This document shows positions 3,139 to 11,827 of a stretch of 64,000 nucleotides of DNA, in pieces. Both the position numbers and the translations under genes were made by a program. The first letter of the stretch is position 1, and every line of letters begins with the position of its first letter. This stretch comes from Halorubrum coriense DSM 10284. GTDB taxonomy: Archaea; Halobacteriota; Halobacteria; Halobacteriales; Haloferacaceae. The notes below the pieces were generated by a model. The model worked only from the letters and a program-made list of their open reading frames with translations, was not told the DNA's origin and ran no database searches. The stretch is taken from the NCBI RefSeq assembly GCF_000337035.1, contig NZ_AOJL01000026.1, positions 124,001-188,000 on the forward strand. Direction: 5' to 3'.

Positions 3139-4797
3139 ATGGAACCAGACTTAGATCGGTTCACCTCGCGGCGATCGACCGTGTACGGGGAGCGCGGCGT
3201 GGTGGCGACCAGCCAACCGCTGGCGAGCCAGGCGGGGATCGAGGTGTTGCGCGAAGGCGGGAACGCGTTCGACGCCGCGGTCGCGACCGCCGCCGCCCTC
3301 AACGTCGTCGAGCCCACCTCGACCGGGCTCGGCGGCGACGTGTTCGCGCTGTACCGGACCGCCGACGGCGAGGTGGGCGCGATGCGCTCCTGCGGCGGCG
3401 CGCCCGCGGACGCGACGATCGAGAACGTTCGGGCGGCGCTCGCCGAGGACGAGAACGCGGACTCGTACTACCCCGACGACGGCGGCTACGCGGTCGACGA
3501 CGCCGGCGAGGCCGGGATGCCGTTCTACGGGCCCCACGCGGTCACGGTCCCCGGAACCGCTCGCGGCTGGGAGGCGACCGTCGAGGAACTGGGCCGGCTC
3601 GGCCTCGCCGACGCGCTCGCGCCGGCGATCCGCTACGCGACCGAGGGGTACCCGGTGTCCGAGGTGATCGCCTCCCACTGGGCGAGCGCCGACGCGCTGT
3701 TCACCGACGACCACGCCCGCGAGGCGTTCCTGTTCGACGACGAGCCGCCGGGCGTCGGCCAGACGGTGACGCTCCCGCGGCTCGGCGAGTCGATGAAGCG
3801 GATCGCCGAGGAGGGGGCGGACGTCGTCTACGAGGGCGAGATCGCCGAGGCGATCGCCGACGAGGTCCAGTCGCAGGGCGGGTTCATGACCGTCGACGAC
3901 CTCGCCGGCTTCGAGGTCGAGTGGCCGGACCCGGTGTCGACCACGTACAACGGCGCGGAGGTGTACGAGCTCCCGCCGAACAACCAAGGGCTCATCGCGC
4001 TGGAGGCCCTCGACGTCGCGGCCGAGCTGGGCGCGGGCGAGTACGACTACGACTCCCCCGAGCGCGTCCACTACTTCGCCGAGGCATTGAAGCGAGCCTT
4101 CCATGACGGCCACCGCTACATCACCGACCCCGAGTACGAGGAGGTCCCACCGCTCGCGTCGGCCGACTGGGCCGCCGAGCGCGCCGCCGGCGTCGGCGAG
4201 ACCGCCTCCCACGACGTCTCCTTCGGCGTGCCGAACGCGAACGCGGAGGACGCCGACACCGTGCTGCTCACGGTCGCCGACGACGCCGGCAACGTCGTCT
4301 CCTACATCAACTCCCGGTTCGCGGGCTTCGGCTCCGGGCTCGTCGCCGGCGACACCGGCATCGCGCTCCAGAACCGCGGCGCGTCCTTCTCGCTCGACCC
4401 CGACCATCCGAACGCGCTCGAACCCGGCAAGCGGCCCTTCCACACGCTCATCCCGGGCGTCGTCCGGTTCGACGAGGACGACTGGGCGGCGTTCGGCGTG
4501 ATGGGCGGGTACATGCAGCCGCAGGGCCACGTCCAGCTGATCTCGAACCTCGTCGACTACGGGATGCCCCTCCAGCGCGCGCTCGACGAGCCGCGGTGGC
4601 GCTACCGCGAGAGCGGCGAGCTGGCGCTCGAACCGCACTTCGACGACGACGCCGCGGCGAAGCTGGTTCGGAGGGACCACGACGTGCGGACGCTCTCCCC
4701 GGTCATGTTCGGCGGGGCGCAGATAGCCCGCAACCGCGACGGGGTCCTCTCGGCGGCCACCGAGCCGCGGAAGGACGGGAACGCGCAGGGGTACTGA
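3139..4797 (+). CDS. ggt: Gamma-glutamyltransferase (Ntn hydrolase)
   Basis: A 552-residue protein of typical family length. The N-terminal GGNAFDAAVATAAALNVVEP motif and the later VPGTARGWE are characteristic. Self-cleavage is expected just before Thr374 in the stretch DADTVLLTVADDAGNVVS, making Thr374 the N-terminal nucleophile of the small subunit. The downstream GPASFSLDPDHPN-like and FHTLIPG segments form the glutamate-binding site. It hydrolyses or transfers gamma-glutamyl groups; haloarchaea use gamma-glutamylcysteine as a thiol, so that is a likely substrate. No signal peptide is visible, so it is probably cytoplasmic. Monocistronic. Confidence 0.9.
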   Translation: MEPDLDRFTSRRSTVYGERGVVATSQPLASQAGIEVLREGGNAFDAAVATAAALNVVEPTSTGLGGDVFALYRTADGEVGAMRSCGGAPADATIENVRAALAEDENADSYYPDDGGYAVDDAGEAGMPFYGPHAVTVPGTARGWEATVEELGRLGLADALAPAIRYATEGYPVSEVIASHWASADALFTDDHAREAFLFDDEPPGVGQTVTLPRLGESMKRIAEEGADVVYEGEIAEAIADEVQSQGGFMTVDDLAGFEVEWPDPVSTTYNGAEVYELPPNNQGLIALEALDVAAELGAGEYDYDSPERVHYFAEALKRAFHDGHRYITDPEYEEVPPLASADWAAERAAGVGETASHDVSFGVPNANAEDADTVLLTVADDAGNVVSYINSRFAGFGSGLVAGDTGIALQNRGASFSLDPDHPNALEPGKRPFHTLIPGVVRFDEDDWAAFGVMGGYMQPQGHVQLISNLVDYGMPLQRALDEPRWRYRESGELALEPHFDDDAAAKLVRRDHDVRTLSPVMFGGAQIARNRDGVLSAATEPRKDGNAQGY

Positions 4798-5043: not shown

Positions 5044-5050
5044 CTTATAA
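5044..5050 (+). promoter_or_regulatory. TATA box of the binding-protein gene
   Basis: The sequence cttataa lies 27-33 nt upstream of the ATG at 5077. This supports a near-leaderless transcript and argues for that ATG rather than the in-frame upstream codons at 5020 and 5050. Confidence 0.55.
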
Positions 5051-5076
5051 TGGCTCGTATGGTATACGCTCACAGG

Positions 5077-6477
5077 ATGAAGCGAAGAATCCAGCGACGC
5101 GACGTACTCAAGGGTGCCGGGGCGGTCGGCATCGCGGGGCTCGCCGGCTGCTCGACGGAGAGCGGCGACGGCGGCGACGGCTCCGACGGCGGCGACGGGA
5201 TGGACGGCGGCGACGGCTCCGACGGCGGCGACGGGATGGACGGCGACGACGGCTCCGACGGCGGCGACCAGAACAACGTCCCGGACGCCGTGATGGTCGT
5301 CGGCTTCCCGCAGTCCGGTATCCAGCTGTTCCGCGACTTCTACTCCGACTTCGCCGGGAGCGCACCGGACCTGGACATCATCGTCCCGGACGGGCTGATC
5401 GACAGCGACCTCCCCGGCGAGGTCGACAACGACATGAACAACGTCATTGGCACCGCCCCCTCGGCGGGCGGTCCCGGCGCGGAGTTCTTCACGTCGTCGT
5501 ACGAGGAGGAGTACGGCGAGGGGCCGGGCGTGTTCACCGCGCAGGCGTACGACGCGATGGCGGTCGAGATACTCGCGGCGACCGCCGCGGGCGAGAACAG
5601 CGGCGAGGCGATCCGCGACCGGGTCCGGACCGTCGCCAACCCCGGCGGCGAGGAGTTCGGTCCCGCGGACCTCCCCGAGGCGGTCGAGACGGTCGCCGGC
5701 GGCGACCCGGTCCACTACGTGGGCGCGTCCTCCAGCGTCGACTTCGACGTCAACGGCGACATCTCCACCGCCGCGTACGACATCATCGACTTCCAAGACG
5801 GCGAACTCGTCACCCTCGACACCGTCGAGTTCGGCAACGAGCTCTCCGACGAGGATCAGAACGCGACGGCCGCGGACCCGGTCGGCGTCGACTCCTTCAC
5901 CGCCCGGATCGGCGTTTTGATGCCGGAGACGGGCGACCTCGGGCCGCTCGGCGTCCCGATCCGCGACGGTGCGCTGCTCGCCGCCACGCAGGTCAACGAC
6001 GCGGGGATCAACGTCGACGTCGAGACCCGCGTCGAGGACACCCAGACGGACCCGCAGGCGGGCATCTCGGGGGCGAACGCGCTCGTCAACGCCGGCTTCG
6101 GCGCGGTCGTCGGCCCGGCGTCGTCGAACGTCAACCTCCAGGTCTCCGAGCAGGTGTTCATCCCCAACGGCGTCGTCGGCGTCTCGCCGTCGTCGACCGA
6201 CCCGAACGTGACCGATCTGGAGGACAACGGCTACATCTTCCGGACCGCGCCCTCCGACCTGCTTCAGGGGCCCGCGATGGCCGACCTCGCCGTCAGCGAC
6301 ACGGTCGGCGCGTCGACGTCCGGGACGCTGTACCTCAACGACGCCTACGGCCAGTCGTTAGAGGAGTCGTACGTCAACGCCTTCGAGGAGCGCGACGGGA
6401 CGGTCGACCAGCGCGTCTCCTTCGAGCCGAACCAGGCGACGTACACCAGCCAGTGGTCGAGCGTGCTGAACCAGTAA
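5077..6477 (+). CDS. Branched-chain amino-acid ABC substrate-binding lipoprotein with circularly permuted lobes
   Basis: A 466-residue Tat lipoprotein: QRRDVLKG twin-Arg motif, lipobox LAGC with Cys25, then a Gly/Asp/Ser linker (about 27-66). The order of the type-1 periplasmic-binding fold is inverted. Residues 67 to about 265 (from NVPDAVMVVGF to LDTVEFGNEL) correspond to the second half of LivJ-type proteins, and residues 276-466 (ARIGVLMPETGDLGPLG to TYTSQWSSVLNQ) to the first half. The protein ends exactly where the family normally continues into the PDAV strand. Near-identical gaYcagaac sequences occur at 5266-5274 and 5854-5862, at the two junctions. It should capture amino acids outside the membrane for the facing livHMGF operon. 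A T-run at 6505-6510 may terminate it. Confidence 0.85.
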   Translation: MKRRIQRRDVLKGAGAVGIAGLAGCSTESGDGGDGSDGGDGMDGGDGSDGGDGMDGDDGSDGGDQNNVPDAVMVVGFPQSGIQLFRDFYSDFAGSAPDLDIIVPDGLIDSDLPGEVDNDMNNVIGTAPSAGGPGAEFFTSSYEEEYGEGPGVFTAQAYDAMAVEILAATAAGENSGEAIRDRVRTVANPGGEEFGPADLPEAVETVAGGDPVHYVGASSSVDFDVNGDISTAAYDIIDFQDGELVTLDTVEFGNELSDEDQNATAADPVGVDSFTARIGVLMPETGDLGPLGVPIRDGALLAATQVNDAGINVDVETRVEDTQTDPQAGISGANALVNAGFGAVVGPASSNVNLQVSEQVFIPNGVVGVSPSSTDPNVTDLEDNGYIFRTAPSDLLQGPAMADLAVSDTVGASTSGTLYLNDAYGQSLEESYVNAFEERDGTVDQRVSFEPNQATYTSQWSSVLNQ

Positions 6478-6543: not shown

Positions 6544-7389
6544 CTATCCGCCGAGGAAGTCGCGCCGCACGTCCTCGTCGGCGAGCAGCACGTCGCCGCG
6601 GTCCGTGTAGCGGTTCTCACCGTTCACCAGCACGTACCCGCGGTCGCAGCGGCGCAGCGCCTCCTTCGCGTTCTGTTCGACCATCAACACCGCCGTCCCG
6701 CCCTCGTTGATCCGGTCGATCCGGTCGAACATGTCGGCGACGAGGTCGGGGGCGAGGCCGGCCGAGGGCTCGTCGAGCAGCAGCAGGTCGGGGTCGAGCA
6801 TGAGCGCCCGCCCCATCGCGACCATCTGCCGTTGGCCGCCGGAGAGCGTCCCCGCCTTCTGGTCGCTGCGCTCCCGGAGGATCGGGAACCGGTCGTAGAT
6901 CGTCTCGATCTGGTCTTCGGGCACTTCGTCGAGGATGTACGCCCCCATTTCGAGGTTCTCGCGGACGCTGAGCCCGGGGAACACGTTGTCGTTCTGCGGG
7001 ACGAAGCCGATCCCCTCGCGGATGATCTGCTCGGGCGCGAGCCCCTGGATCGCCTCCCCCTGGAACTCGACGCGACCGCCCATGTGCGTCGTGAGCCCGA
7101 AGACGGTCTTCATCACCGTCGACTTGCCGGCCCCGTTGGGGCCGACGATGGTCACGTACTCCTCGTCCGCCACGTCGAGGACGACGTCGGAGAGGATCTG
7201 GAGGTCGCCGTACCCGGCGTCGAGGTCGCGGAGACGCAGGATCGCGTCGCCGTCGATCGCGTGGTCGGTGCCGGCGGTGGCGGCCGTTTCCGTCTCGTCG
7301 GCGGGACCCTCGGGAGCCTCGTCGGCGGCCGCCCCCGTCTCACCCGCGTCGACCCCGCCCACGTCGTCGGCCGCGGCGTCGGCGGTCAT
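6544..7389 (-). CDS. livF: Branched-chain amino-acid ABC transporter ATPase LivF
   Basis: A 281-residue ABC ATPase. It has an acidic N-terminal extension of about 45 residues, then Walker A GPNGAGKST, a Q-loop region (FVPQNDNVFPGLSVRENL), signature LSGGQRQM, Walker B LLLLDEPSAG and an H-loop replaced by VEQNAK, the LivF variant of the switch. It powers import with LivG, LivH and LivM at the cytoplasmic face. The start ATG overlaps the livG stop (ATGA), so it is translationally coupled as the last gene of livHMGF. Confidence 0.93.
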   Translation of the reverse strand: MTADAAADDVGGVDAGETGAAADEAPEGPADETETAATAGTDHAIDGDAILRLRDLDAGYGDLQILSDVVLDVADEEYVTIVGPNGAGKSTVMKTVFGLTTHMGGRVEFQGEAIQGLAPEQIIREGIGFVPQNDNVFPGLSVRENLEMGAYILDEVPEDQIETIYDRFPILRERSDQKAGTLSGGQRQMVAMGRALMLDPDLLLLDEPSAGLAPDLVADMFDRIDRINEGGTAVLMVEQNAKEALRRCDRGYVLVNGENRYTDRGDVLLADEDVRRDFLGG

Positions 7390-8297
7390 AGGTCCTCACC
7401 CAGGTACGCCTCGATGACCCGCTCGTCGCTCCGTATCTCGTCGCCGGTCCCCTCGGCGAGAACGCTCCCCTGATGCATGACGATGACGTGTTCGCAGTTC
7501 TCCATGATGATGTCCATGTCGTGCTCGACCAGCAGGAAGGTGTAGCCGTCGGCGCGCAGCTCGTGGATCCGGTCGAGGAGCTTCTCCTCCAAGGTGGGGT
7601 TGACCCCGGCGAGCGGCTCGTCGAGCAACACCATCTCGGGGTCGGTCATCAGCGCCCGGGCCATCTCCAGCAGCTTCCGCTGGCCGCCGGAGAGGTTCCC
7701 CGCGTGTTCGTGCGCGAGGTGGTCGATCTCGAAGAACTCCAGCGTCTCCCACGCCCGCTCGCGGAGGTCGGTCTCCTCCGCGACGACCGCGCCGCGGAGC
7801 CCGGGCGTGACCGCGCGGACCGCGGACTCGCCGATCTGCCCCTGCGGCGCGAGCATGAGGTTCTCCAAGACGGTCATCTCGGCGAGCTCTCGGGCGATCT
7901 GGAACGTCCGAACCAGTCCCTGCCGCGCGATCCGATGCGGTCTGAGGCCGGTGATGTCCTCGCCCTCGAAGTACACCGACCCGGCGGTCGGCTCGTGGAC
8001 GCCGGTGATACAGTTGAACGTCGTCGACTTCCCGGCGCCGTTCGGTCCGATCAGCCCGGTCAGCGACCCGGACTCGACCTCGAAGGAGGCCCCGTCGACG
8101 GCGGTGACGCCGCCGAACCGCTTCACGAGCCCCTCCACGCGGAGCGGCGGATCCCCCGAGGGGGGCCCCGACGGGACGTGTTTCGCCGCCTCCTCGACCT
8201 CGCTGTCGTTCGCCTCCGGTTCGGCGTCGGGGCCGTCCGCGGCGGAGACCGCGTCGGGCGCGCCGCCGTCGGTCGGGTCCGGGGCGTCGCTACTCAT
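7386..8297 (-). CDS. livG: Branched-chain amino-acid ABC transporter ATPase LivG
   Basis: A 303-residue ABC ATPase. Walker A is GPNGAGKST, followed by a LivG-type stretch FEGEDITGLRPHRIARQGLVRTFQ, the signature LSGGQRKLLEMARAL, Walker B MVLLDEPLAGVNP and the H-switch LVEHDMD. The N-terminal ~45 residues are an acidic haloarchaeal tail. The ATG at 8297 overlaps the livM stop by 8 nt (ATGAGTAG); an upstream in-frame ATG at 8306 is less likely. It couples with LivF to energise the LivH/LivM channel. Confidence 0.93.
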   Translation of the reverse strand: MSSDAPDPTDGGAPDAVSAADGPDAEPEANDSEVEEAAKHVPSGPPSGDPPLRVEGLVKRFGGVTAVDGASFEVESGSLTGLIGPNGAGKSTTFNCITGVHEPTAGSVYFEGEDITGLRPHRIARQGLVRTFQIARELAEMTVLENLMLAPQGQIGESAVRAVTPGLRGAVVAEETDLRERAWETLEFFEIDHLAHEHAGNLSGGQRKLLEMARALMTDPEMVLLDEPLAGVNPTLEEKLLDRIHELRADGYTFLLVEHDMDIIMENCEHVIVMHQGSVLAEGTGDEIRSDERVIEAYLGEDL

Positions 8298-9624
8298 CGG
8301 CGTCACCTCCGGCAGGCCGCTCGGAGAGGTCGACGGCCGCGGCCGTCTCGATCCGGTCGCCGAGGATCCCGTCGGGCCGTCGGTGGATGATGAACACCAA
8401 GACGAGGCCGAGGAAGACGAACTGGAGCGGCGCGATGTTGTCGGTCGCGTACGCGAGGAACGTCACCGGGTCCAGCGACGCGACGGCGTCGGCGAACGAC
8501 GCCGGCGTCTGCGCGTCGATGAGCCCCCGGACCGTCGCGCCGACGCGCCGGGGCCCCTCGAACAGTACCGCGGCGAAGACGATGCCCCCGAGGACCGAGC
8601 CGGTGTTCGACCCGGAACCGCCGATGATCACCGCGATGAAGACGTAGAACGTCAGGAGCGGTCGGAACTGCGGCGTCGGCGAGACGTTGCCCTGACTGCC
8701 GAACCAGAGGATCCCGGCGAGCCCCATCAGCGCGCAGCCGATGACGAACACCTTGATCTTCACGAGGTTCACGTCCTTGCCGAGCGAGTCGGCGACGAGT
8801 TCGTCCTCGCGGATCGCCTTCATCACCCGGCCGAACGGCGACCGCCCGAGGCGTTCGAGCAGGAGGTAGAAGCCGACGAGGAAGCCGGCGAGCACGGCGA
8901 TGTACCCCCACCCGATGAGGATCGGGTGCGCGATCCCGAGGCCGTCGGTCCCGAAGATCCCGAAGACGAGGTCGCCGAACGCGGTCGGCGTCCCCGCCTG
9001 GCCGTCAACGAGGAACAGGTCGCGGACGGGGTTGTCCGGCATCCCCATCCCGCGACCGCCCCCGGTCCCGGCACCGATCGTGTCGCGCAGGAAGTTGTCG
9101 AAGGTGCTCGACTGGAGCGACAGGCGGACGATCTCGGAGAGCCCGAGCGTCACGATGGCGAGGTAGTCGGCCTTGAGCCGCAGCGCCGGCAGGGCGGCGA
9201 CGGCGCCGAGCAGGCCCGCCGTCGCCATCCCGGCGACGATGCCGACCGGGAGCGGTAACCCCAGTCCGGGCGGTCCGAAGGCGGGGTCCGGCGACCGCAC
9301 GACCATCCCCATCGTGTACACGCCGACGGCCATGAAGCCGGCGACGCCGATGTTGAACAGCCCGGTGTACCCCCACTGGAGGTTGAGGGCGAGCGCGGTG
9401 AGCGCGTAGACGAGCCCGAGGAACGTCAGCGTCTCTAACAGTCCGACGACGCTGTTGAGGCCGTCGGTGAATGTCAGGAGCGTCGCGGCGGCGTAGATCG
9501 CGAGCAGCGTGCCGACCACGAGGCCGAGGTCGCTCTCCCGGGCGGCCTCGACCAGCGCCGCCGTGGCGCTCTCCGGCGCGTCCGACGAGCGCCGGGCCCC
9601 GTCGGGGACGTCGGCGTCGCTCAC
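8290..9624 (-). CDS. livM: Branched-chain amino-acid ABC permease LivM
   Basis: A 444-residue integral membrane protein with about 8-10 hydrophobic segments. The LivM hallmarks are QWGYTGLFNIGVAGFMAVG, ALRLKADYLAIVTLGLSEI and ESPFGRVMKAIREDE-like (RSPFGRVMKAIREDE). The GTG start at 9624 overlaps the livH stop (GTGA), which explains why the much longer open frame upstream is not used. It carries a roughly 55-residue insertion between the TLGLSEI and IGWGYI regions. It forms half of the membrane channel. Confidence 0.9.
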   Translation of the reverse strand: MSDADVPDGARRSSDAPESATAALVEAARESDLGLVVGTLLAIYAAATLLTFTDGLNSVVGLLETLTFLGLVYALTALALNLQWGYTGLFNIGVAGFMAVGVYTMGMVVRSPDPAFGPPGLGLPLPVGIVAGMATAGLLGAVAALPALRLKADYLAIVTLGLSEIVRLSLQSSTFDNFLRDTIGAGTGGGRGMGMPDNPVRDLFLVDGQAGTPTAFGDLVFGIFGTDGLGIAHPILIGWGYIAVLAGFLVGFYLLLERLGRSPFGRVMKAIREDELVADSLGKDVNLVKIKVFVIGCALMGLAGILWFGSQGNVSPTPQFRPLLTFYVFIAVIIGGSGSNTGSVLGGIVFAAVLFEGPRRVGATVRGLIDAQTPASFADAVASLDPVTFLAYATDNIAPLQFVFLGLVLVFIIHRRPDGILGDRIETAAAVDLSERPAGGDADE

Positions 9625-10742
9625 GCCGTCGACACCCCCTTGAACAGCCCCTCGGGACGCAAGAGGAGCATCAGGATCATCACGGCGAACGCCGCGGCCT
9701 GATTGAAGTCGGACGGGATCCAGATCGTCGAGGTGGTGAACACGACCCCGATGACGAGTCCGCCGACGATCGCGCCGTACACCGACCCGATCCCGCCGAG
9801 GATCACGGCCGCGAAGATGAGGAGCAGGAGGAGCCAGCCGAAGTCGAACTGGATCGTCCCGCGGAGCAGGACGTAAAGATAGCCGGACGCCCCCGCGAGC
9901 CCGCCGCCGATGACCCACGTGGCGGTGACGACGCGCTCGGCCGGGATGCCGGTGATGAGCGCGAGGTCCTTGTTGTCGGCCATCGCCCGCATCGCGGTGC
10001 CGAGCTTCGTGTGCTGGAGCATGCCGTGCATCGCGAGCATCAGCCCGACCGCGGCCACGAGGATGGTGAGCTCGTGCGCGTTCACCGAGAGCCCGAGCGG
10101 GCCGAACGCCAAGTTCGACGCCTCGACGCTGGCGGTCACGCCGCGCCGGTCGGAGCCGTAGCCGAACTGGAGCAGGTAGCGGACGATGAGCGCCGCGCCG
10201 ATGGAGGCGATGAGCAGGGAGATCCCGTCGCGGTCCCGCATCGGCTTGTAGAACGTGCGGTCGAGCGCCACTGCGAGCAGCGCCGTGACGGCGAACGCCG
10301 CGACCAGTCCGACGAGGATCGCGCCCGGCGTCGTGAGGATGTGCGCGCCGATGTCGCCCGGCGACGCGCTCCCGGCGTCGCGGACCGTCAGGAGCGCGCG
10401 GGCCGGGATGTCACCGAAGCCGGCGATCAGGAAGGCGACGCCCCACCCGGAGAACGCGCCCACGCTGACGAGGTCACCGTGCGAGAAGTTCGCGAACGAG
10501 AGGATGCTGTACGTCATCGAGAGCCCGATGCCGGCGAGCCCGATCACGAGGCCGATGACGATGCCGTTCCAGAGGTTCGAGCCGAGCCGGTCGACCGAGA
10601 GCGACCCCCCGATCGGACCGAGGCCGACGCCCGCGAGTTTCGCCGCGAGGTCGACGAGGAGCAGGCCACCGAGGAGGGCGACGAAGAGAAGCCCCGGCCG
10701 GGCCCGCGCCGAGTCGACGATCGACGAGTCAGTTGTTCCCAT
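9621..10742 (-). CDS. livH: Branched-chain amino-acid ABC permease LivH
   Basis: A 373-residue integral membrane protein and the first gene of livHMGF. Recognisable LivH segments are MTYSILSFANFSHGD, a long periplasmic insertion, AMRAMADNKDLALITGIP (the coupling helix region) and the C-terminal GGIGSVYGAIVGGLVIG. It is about 80 residues longer than bacterial LivH because of an N-terminal extension and a loop insertion around 130-150. No binding-protein gene is in this operon; the only candidate nearby is the permuted lipoprotein converging from the other side. Confidence 0.9.
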   Translation of the reverse strand: MGTTDSSIVDSARARPGLLFVALLGGLLLVDLAAKLAGVGLGPIGGSLSVDRLGSNLWNGIVIGLVIGLAGIGLSMTYSILSFANFSHGDLVSVGAFSGWGVAFLIAGFGDIPARALLTVRDAGSASPGDIGAHILTTPGAILVGLVAAFAVTALLAVALDRTFYKPMRDRDGISLLIASIGAALIVRYLLQFGYGSDRRGVTASVEASNLAFGPLGLSVNAHELTILVAAVGLMLAMHGMLQHTKLGTAMRAMADNKDLALITGIPAERVVTATWVIGGGLAGASGYLYVLLRGTIQFDFGWLLLLLIFAAVILGGIGSVYGAIVGGLVIGVVFTTSTIWIPSDFNQAAAFAVMILMLLLRPEGLFKGVSTA

Positions 10743-10888: not shown

Positions 10889-11827
10889 TCAGTCGCCGCC
10901 CGCGGCCCGCGCGTGGCGTCGGGCGTCTTCGGGCGACCGACCCTCGCGCAACAGCGCCTCGACGAACAGCTCGCCGGCCTTGTACGACGACCGGACCATC
11001 GCGCCCGACGCGCAGTAGAGGAAGTCGAACTCCTCCTCGGCGACGCGCCGCCACGTCTCGAAGACGTCCGGGTGGACGTACTCGAACACGTCGAGGTGCG
11101 AGCGGGAGGGCTGGAGGTACTGGCCGAAGGTGACCACGTCGACGCCCACCTCGCGGAGGTCGCCGAGCGTCCGATACACCTCGTGGTCGTACTCGCCGAC
11201 GCCCAGCATGAGACTCGTCTTCGTGTGGATGTCGGACTCGCGGTCGACCTGATCGAGGACCGCCAGCGACTGCTCGTAGTTCGCGCGGCGGTCGCGGACC
11301 GGCCACTGGAGGCGTTCGACCGTCTCGACGTTGTGCGCGATCACGTCCGGCTCGGCGTCGATTATCCGCCGGATCGCCTCGGGGTCCCCGCCGAAGTCCG
11401 GGATGAGCGTCTCGACGAGGATCTCGGGGTCGCGGCGCTTGATCGCCCGGATCGTCTCGGCGAAGTGCGCCGACCCGCCGTCCGCGAGGTCGTCGCGGTC
11501 GACGGACGTGAGGACGACGTAGTCCAGCCCGATCTCCGCGACCGCGTCCGCGACGTTAGCGGGCTCGTCCGGGTCGAGCGCCTCCATCCCGCCCGTCTCG
11601 ACGTCGCAGAAGTTACAGCCGCGCGAGCAGCGGTCGCCCAGCAGCATGAACGTCGCCGTCCCGGGACCGTCGTTCCCAGACCAGCACTCGCCCATGTTCG
11701 GGCAGTTCGCCTCCTCGCAGACCGTGTGGAGGTCGTGCTCGCGGAGGGTGGACTTGATCTCGGTGAACCGACTCCCGGACGGCGGGCGCGACTTCAGCCA
11801 GTCCGGCTTCCGGCGGCCGCGTGACAT
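10889..11827 (-). CDS. lipA: Lipoyl synthase (radical SAM)
   Basis: A 312-residue protein of normal family length. It carries both iron-sulfur motifs: C37, C42 and C48 (CEEANCPNMGEC) for the auxiliary cluster and C67, C71 and C74 (CSRGCNFC) for the radical-SAM cluster. It inserts two sulfurs into octanoyl groups on E2/GcvH proteins. The DDLADGGSAHF and HNVETV stretches are also typical. It stands alone here; no lipB is adjacent. The C-terminal R-R-H-A-R-A tail is haloarchaeal. Confidence 0.94.
   Translation of the reverse strand: MSRGRRKPDWLKSRPPSGSRFTEIKSTLREHDLHTVCEEANCPNMGECWSGNDGPGTATFMLLGDRCSRGCNFCDVETGGMEALDPDEPANVADAVAEIGLDYVVLTSVDRDDLADGGSAHFAETIRAIKRRDPEILVETLIPDFGGDPEAIRRIIDAEPDVIAHNVETVERLQWPVRDRRANYEQSLAVLDQVDRESDIHTKTSLMLGVGEYDHEVYRTLGDLREVGVDVVTFGQYLQPSRSHLDVFEYVHPDVFETWRRVAEEEFDFLYCASGAMVRSSYKAGELFVEALLREGRSPEDARRHARAAGGD

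Follow-up and report, generated by a model that had tools for sequence, protein, structure and literature searches.

LivJ and LivK, the substrate-binding proteins of the HAAT importers (PF13458; 3td9, 4n0q, 4gnr, and 1z15), match both halves of the protein described here over nearly their whole length. As in the LivJ/LivK systems, its gene adjoins homologues of LivF, LivG, LivM, and LivH. The predicted elements of the protein are the same as those of LivJ/LivK, and their order differs. Unlike in LivJ/LivK, the C-terminal half (C-half) and the N-terminal half (N-half) are exchanged, a linker, 15–21 amino acids long across the permuted proteins, connects the old termini, and the new N-terminus lies in the loop ahead of the first strand of the C-half.

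Bacteria are already known to have a type I ligand-binding lipoprotein that is naturally circularly permuted. TpMglB-2 (Tp0684), of Treponema pallidum and relatives, has been classed as "Type Ic / Cluster Bc" since its structure was solved in 2016 (PMC4990184). The first three strands of its N-lobe have shifted to the C-terminus, and the relocated segment keeps only 13% identity (PMC4990184). TpMglB-2 binds D-glucose and changes conformation (PMC4990184), so permutants of this kind can work. The authors suggested that permutation is an adaptation of binding proteins to being tethered to the membrane (PMC4990184). The type I fold, the permuted topology (predicted in our case), the N-terminal lipid anchor, and the adjacent ABC transporter genes are shared with the haloarchaeal protein. 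TpMglB-2 is bacterial and belongs to the sugar-binding (glucose/galactose) MglB family, whereas the protein studied here is archaeal and belongs to the LivJ/HAAT family. The break in TpMglB-2 follows the third strand of the N-lobe, whereas ours falls mid-chain. Unlike TpMglB-2, the haloarchaeal halves keep approximately 43–68% identity to standard-order relatives, and permuted and standard forms are found at the same locus.

The gene lies in a stretch of 64,000 nucleotides from Halorubrum coriense DSM 10284, called the window below. The features of the locus are as follows (window coordinates).

3139–4797, + strand: gamma-glutamyltransferase-like gene, which we take to be such from its sequence; left border of the Halorubrum locus by synteny
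5045–5051, + strand: possible archaeal TATA box, TTATAAT, read from the sequence, about 29 nt 5′ of the start codon
5077–5151, + strand: signal peptide MKRRIQRRDVLKGAGAVGIAGLAGC, with a Tat twin-arginine motif and the lipobox LAGC, read from the sequence
5152–5280, + strand: acidic spacer rich in GD/SDG, residues 26–68, with 9/18-nt repeats
5266–5274, + strand: first copy of the GAYCAGAAC word, GACCAGAAC; not conserved, near chance
5281–5844, + strand: LivJ C-half at the front, PDAVMVVGFPQSGI to VEFGNEL, residues 69–256, by homology of the halves
5845–5901, + strand: linker, SDEDQNATAADPVGVDSFT, between the old C- and N-termini, residues 257–275 (19 residues)
5854–5862, + strand: second copy of the GAYCAGAAC word, GATCAGAAC; not conserved, near chance
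5902–6474, + strand: LivJ N-half at the back, ARIGVLMPETG to QWSSVLNQ, residues 276–466, by homology of the halves
6475–6477, + strand: stop codon of the permuted gene
6544–7389, − strand: ABC ATPase of the LivF type, convergent with the gene for the binding protein; synteny holds in nearly all loci, permuted and standard alike
7386–8306, − strand: LivG-type ABC ATPase, by synteny
8290–9621, − strand: LivM-type permease with a putative start, the ORF being open to 9918; by synteny
9621–10742, − strand: LivH-type permease, by synteny
10889–11827, − strand: presumably lipA (lipoyl synthase), named from its sequence; right border of the Halorubrum locus by synteny

The ORF at 5077–6477 (+ strand) starts with the ATG at 5077 and encodes 466 amino acids in one intact frame with no stops. 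The spacing between the possible TATA box and the start codon is usual for haloarchaeal leaderless or short-leader transcripts. The N-terminus has the twin-arginine motif and lipobox of a haloarchaeal Tat lipoprotein (KRRIQRRDVLKG...LAGC), and Cys25 of the lipobox is presumed to be the lipidated residue. The match to the Pfam TAT_signal family was weak (residues 5–24, E = 6e-4), its 20.0 bits falling just under the 22.7-bit cut-off. The Tat/lipobox signal is kept at the N-terminus in most relatives. The spacer is made up of 9/18-nt repeats (GGCGGCGACGGCTCCGAC..., window 5160–5268); it differs in length and composition among relatives, and its length changes fast between species.

The earlier note had read the C-half as standing before the N-half in a LivJ-type lipoprotein. 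This was confirmed by the profile match, by the paralogues in the genome itself, and by blast searches with each half. PF13458 (Peripla_BP_6) matched the protein with E = 3.4e-31 in two stretches that cover both halves. In the profile search of the genome, positions 189–311 of PF13458 were found at C26:129275-129634, ahead of positions 2–186 at 129902-130465. Standard-order paralogues are present in the same genome (C61 and C27). When each half was aligned separately to relatives, the N-terminal part of the ORF matched the latter half of LivJ-type proteins and its C-terminal part the first half; blast searches of each half against more than 100 relatives assigned nearly all homologues clearly as permuted or standard. 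The junction positions given at first also held on comparison with the relatives. Both halves are homologous to the LivJ/HAAT family (PF13458), and the N-half does not precede the C-half as it does in the type I topology. Because the order is exchanged, the protein is a permuted derivative and not a canonical member of the family.

Structure prediction, which the earlier note had proposed, points to a single confident fold. The mature protein (404 residues) was modelled with AlphaFold2 from a 44-row alignment in which standard relatives were put in as separate halves. The model had a mean pLDDT of 88.6 and a pTM of 0.85, with no segment of at least 3 residues under 50. In Foldseek searches against the PDB, its top matches were LivJ/LivK-type structures aligned over approximately 190 columns, that is, one half, with at best a TM of 0.43 and an rmsd of 2.2–2.5. 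The standard-order sister from Halorarius litoreus (L129) was used as a control; its AlphaFold2 model had a pLDDT of 91.6 and a pTM of 0.91, and it aligned with the same LivJ/LivK structures over 376–384 columns with a TM of 0.81–0.82. A half-length alignment of the permuted model against a full-length one of the control is the signature of a circular permutation in which the predicted fold is kept.

The earlier note also considered a lipoprotein of this kind to be undescribed. This is not supported, because TpMglB-2 has been known as a permuted type I lipoprotein since 2016 (PMC4990184), with another breakpoint and in another family. No report of a haloarchaeal or LivJ-type natural permutation was found in the open-access literature, most subscription papers being outside the scope of that search. 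Compared with TpMglB-2, the new elements are the LivJ/HAAT family, the mid-chain break, the archaeal host, more than one origin, and a locus that holds either form.

In standard proteins, the N-half closes with a helix, ...SYxSxLxxAL, which is followed by a short loop to PDxLxVIGYP. The stretch that runs from the Tyr of this helix to the aromatic position in G[YF]P was exactly 20 residues long in all 54 distinct standard proteins parsed. Permuted proteins end 9–13 residues past the same helix Tyr, and their folded part starts at the same PD. The breakpoint is identical in all permuted clades (A, B, C, and D) and falls at profile position ~186–189 of the 343 of PF13458. In clades B, C, and D, the linker mostly ends in (G/D)R(T/E), like the mature N-termini of many standard relatives, which end in ...GRT-, ...DRT-, or ...GRE-. 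The linker of clade A, the clade of the window protein, ends in (S/E)F(E/T)-A and matches the mature N-terminus of the standard sister L129 (...SMSFE-AKVGVLMPETG), which points to tandem duplication and fusion.

Tandem duplication had been proposed in the earlier note, with recombination between two GAYCAGAAC words at the junctions. Duplication with in-frame fusion is the most likely route, and the crossover at these words was dropped. The words are indeed present at 5266–5274 and 5854–5862. The window holds 3 of them against 1.03 expected, and 8 of 100 shuffles reached 3. They stand at both junctions only in the window and in its nearest relative (L103). Crossover scars were ruled out, the words not being conserved within the genus and their frequency being near chance. 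The words are no recombination scar, because the permutation is far older and they are missing at the junctions in other Halorubrum species.

The LivH/LivM permease and LivG/LivF ATPase genes accompany the binding-protein gene as in HAAT systems, convergent and not co-directional with it. The order livF-livG-livM-livH, convergent with the binding-protein gene, was found in nearly every locus with flanking sequence, permuted or standard. The binding-protein gene is co-directional with the permease genes in a few loci only (L185 and L141/L142). In Halorubrum, the slot flanked by the gamma-glutamyltransferase gene and lipA is occupied by the window-type permuted gene in L043, L045, L103, and others, by a standard gene in L086 (G041), and by a second permuted type with the cassette inverted in L047 and L050 (genomes G023 and G008). 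The standard sisters L129 and L086 have the same convergent cassette of a binding-protein gene and livFGMH with the normal N–C order, and they show 57–67% identity per half to the window protein. Permuted and standard genes share one slot and so appear to be interchangeable forms of a single component. This supports the idea that the permuted protein serves the adjacent importer as its binding protein.

Several loci differ from this pattern. The cassettes of L047/L050 and L043/L045 have binding proteins approximately 50% identical and opposite orientations, as if one had been replaced by transfer. In two Halorubrum loci with a standard-order gene, L092 and L093 (genomes G049 and G034), livFGMH was not detected in the flanking DNA fetched; the gene is possibly an orphan, and L093 is a short contig end. 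A tandem pair of permuted binding-protein genes was found in L068 (5986–8798), and another in L171. The copy nearer livF in L068 (5986–7311) has neither the lipobox Cys nor the spacer, so it may be secreted and not anchored. In L060 (genome G152), two permuted copies lie approximately 11 kb apart, and one ORF runs into a stretch of N. In L046 (genome G016), the permuted gene is broken after residue ~362 by an ORF that, judged by eye, resembles a transposase (from ~7080), and livFG and part of livM still adjoin it.

Whole-genome searches with the window protein found a permuted gene in 48 of 52 Halorubrum genomes. The window type was present in 31 (76–100% identity, one truncated), the second permuted type, approximately 50% identical, in 17, and the standard type in 3; one genome had none. 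In the sample of the order Halobacteriales, 160 of 392 genomes carried a permuted gene, called as a collinear match over both halves with E ≤ 1e-75; these belong to 36 of 95 genera and to nine families. Outside Halobacteriales, the genomes sampled from the phylum yielded no permuted form, the matches being standard-order pairs or single halves. The earlier note had overlooked both that the permuted form is widespread in Halobacteriales and that it has more than one origin.

This distribution bears on whether the gene order is real. The source genome is a draft of 69 contigs, and a mis-joined contig could have hidden a gene in standard order. However, order, junctions, and neighbours are identical in the 160 genomes, which were sequenced independently, span 36 genera, and include the single-contig assemblies G021, G042, and G045. 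Assembly error is ruled out by this conservation, and we give a chimera practically no weight. Another explanation is that the permuted gene is a relic in decay, or that its function has changed, with the halves working apart from each other or solely as domain-swapped dimers. The broken gene in L046 counts in favour of this. Against this, the dN/dS of the halves is low (0.07–0.39 in comparisons with nine relatives), the linker being mostly less constrained, and the gene is conserved across 36 genera, is constantly paired with livFGMH, and is confidently predicted to fold as a monomer. The dN/dS values rule out a pseudogene. The gene is under purifying selection, and we consider a relic, separately acting halves, or an obligate domain-swapped dimer very unlikely.

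The number of origins is a closer question. For the trees, the halves of the permuted proteins were first returned to standard order. With the first, smaller sampling of binding proteins, a single permuted clade was not rejected (ΔlnL 42.5, AU p = 0.068), which, together with the identical breakpoint in all clades, would fit one ancient permutation, with the standard genes being reversions or the trees being misled by gene conversion or transfer between the forms. The linkers of clades B, C, and D are also loosely alike, with a faint likeness to clade A (TAADPVGVD vs PAADSGPGGSD), and B, C, and D as one clade survived testing (p = 0.19). When standard genes from more families were added, however, a single permuted clade was rejected (ΔlnL 87, AU p = 0.0008), as was A and B as one group (p = 0.018). 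The LivFGMH tree, built from independent data of approximately 1,340 columns, also rejected one permuted clade (ΔlnL 184, p = 4.6e-6) and A with B (ΔlnL 285). In both trees, clade A is nested within successive standard-order branches, and the root is a co-directional standard operon. Permuted and standard forms also interleave in separate trees of the N-half and the C-half, with weaker support. The invariant 20-residue distance in standard proteins argues against reversion from the permuted form, the breakpoint loop carrying no reversion scar, and the linker end of clade A is specific to its own standard sister. A single ancient permutation is therefore improbable in our view, though less so than the two explanations above. 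From these sequence comparisons, there appear to have been at least two independent rearrangements in Halobacteriales, one in clade A and at least one in clades B, C, and D. Two is the safe count because B, C, and D could share a single origin; more origins would be compatible with the transporter tree. Cassettes were likely exchanged horizontally, which could blur the count.

We believe, with a probability of about 0.83, that the window encodes a functional, naturally circularly permuted type I LivJ/HAAT lipoprotein that serves LivHMGF, and that such proteins arose by tandem duplication and fusion at least twice in Halobacteriales. We infer the duplication–fusion route, the transport role, the class of ligand, and the effect on anchoring. 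A standard gene with the order signal, N-half, and C-half would have been duplicated in tandem. If the first N-half and the second C-half were then lost and the remainder fused in frame, the product would be a signal, a spacer, the C-half of copy 1, a linker, and the N-half of copy 2, and the linker would retain the end of the mature N-terminus of copy 2. Tandem copies exist today (L068 and L171), which is counted in favour of this route. Intermediates of the form N-C-N-C or C-N-C-N were not found among the loci sampled in Halobacteriales.

The new termini would lie in the short loop between the helix that closes the N-half and the strand that opens the C-half, so the two-lobed fold and the cleft are predicted to be kept. 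The feature that would change is the attachment point of the lipid-anchored spacer, now at a mid-chain loop of the old protein. The cleft motifs GPASS, SPSST, and DGL, which are drawn from both halves, align with LivJ-type proteins. The ligand is probably a small molecule, an amino acid or an amide, handed to the adjacent LivHMGF importer. The permutation may be adaptive, through the geometry of the tether or the order of export and folding, or it may be neutral. It is possible, if rather doubtful, that three or four permutations (A–D) arose independently at the same breakpoint because selection in haloarchaea repeatedly favours an anchor on the other lobe or a changed order of folding on export. 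If this were true, circular permutation would here be convergent and adaptive, and the same locus would still hold the ancestral form.

As a rule, natural circular permutation is deduced from structures and taken as a single ancient event. In the haloarchaea, permuted and standard forms share a locus among sister genera and also inside one genus, with clean junctions and more than one origin. How circular permutation comes about (through duplication and fusion), how often, and for what selective reason can thus be tested directly in cultured archaea, and the haloarchaeal pair of forms also offers a test of the tethering suggestion made for TpMglB-2 (PMC4990184). In practice, whole-length profile models match only one half of a permuted protein at a time and may score it wrongly.
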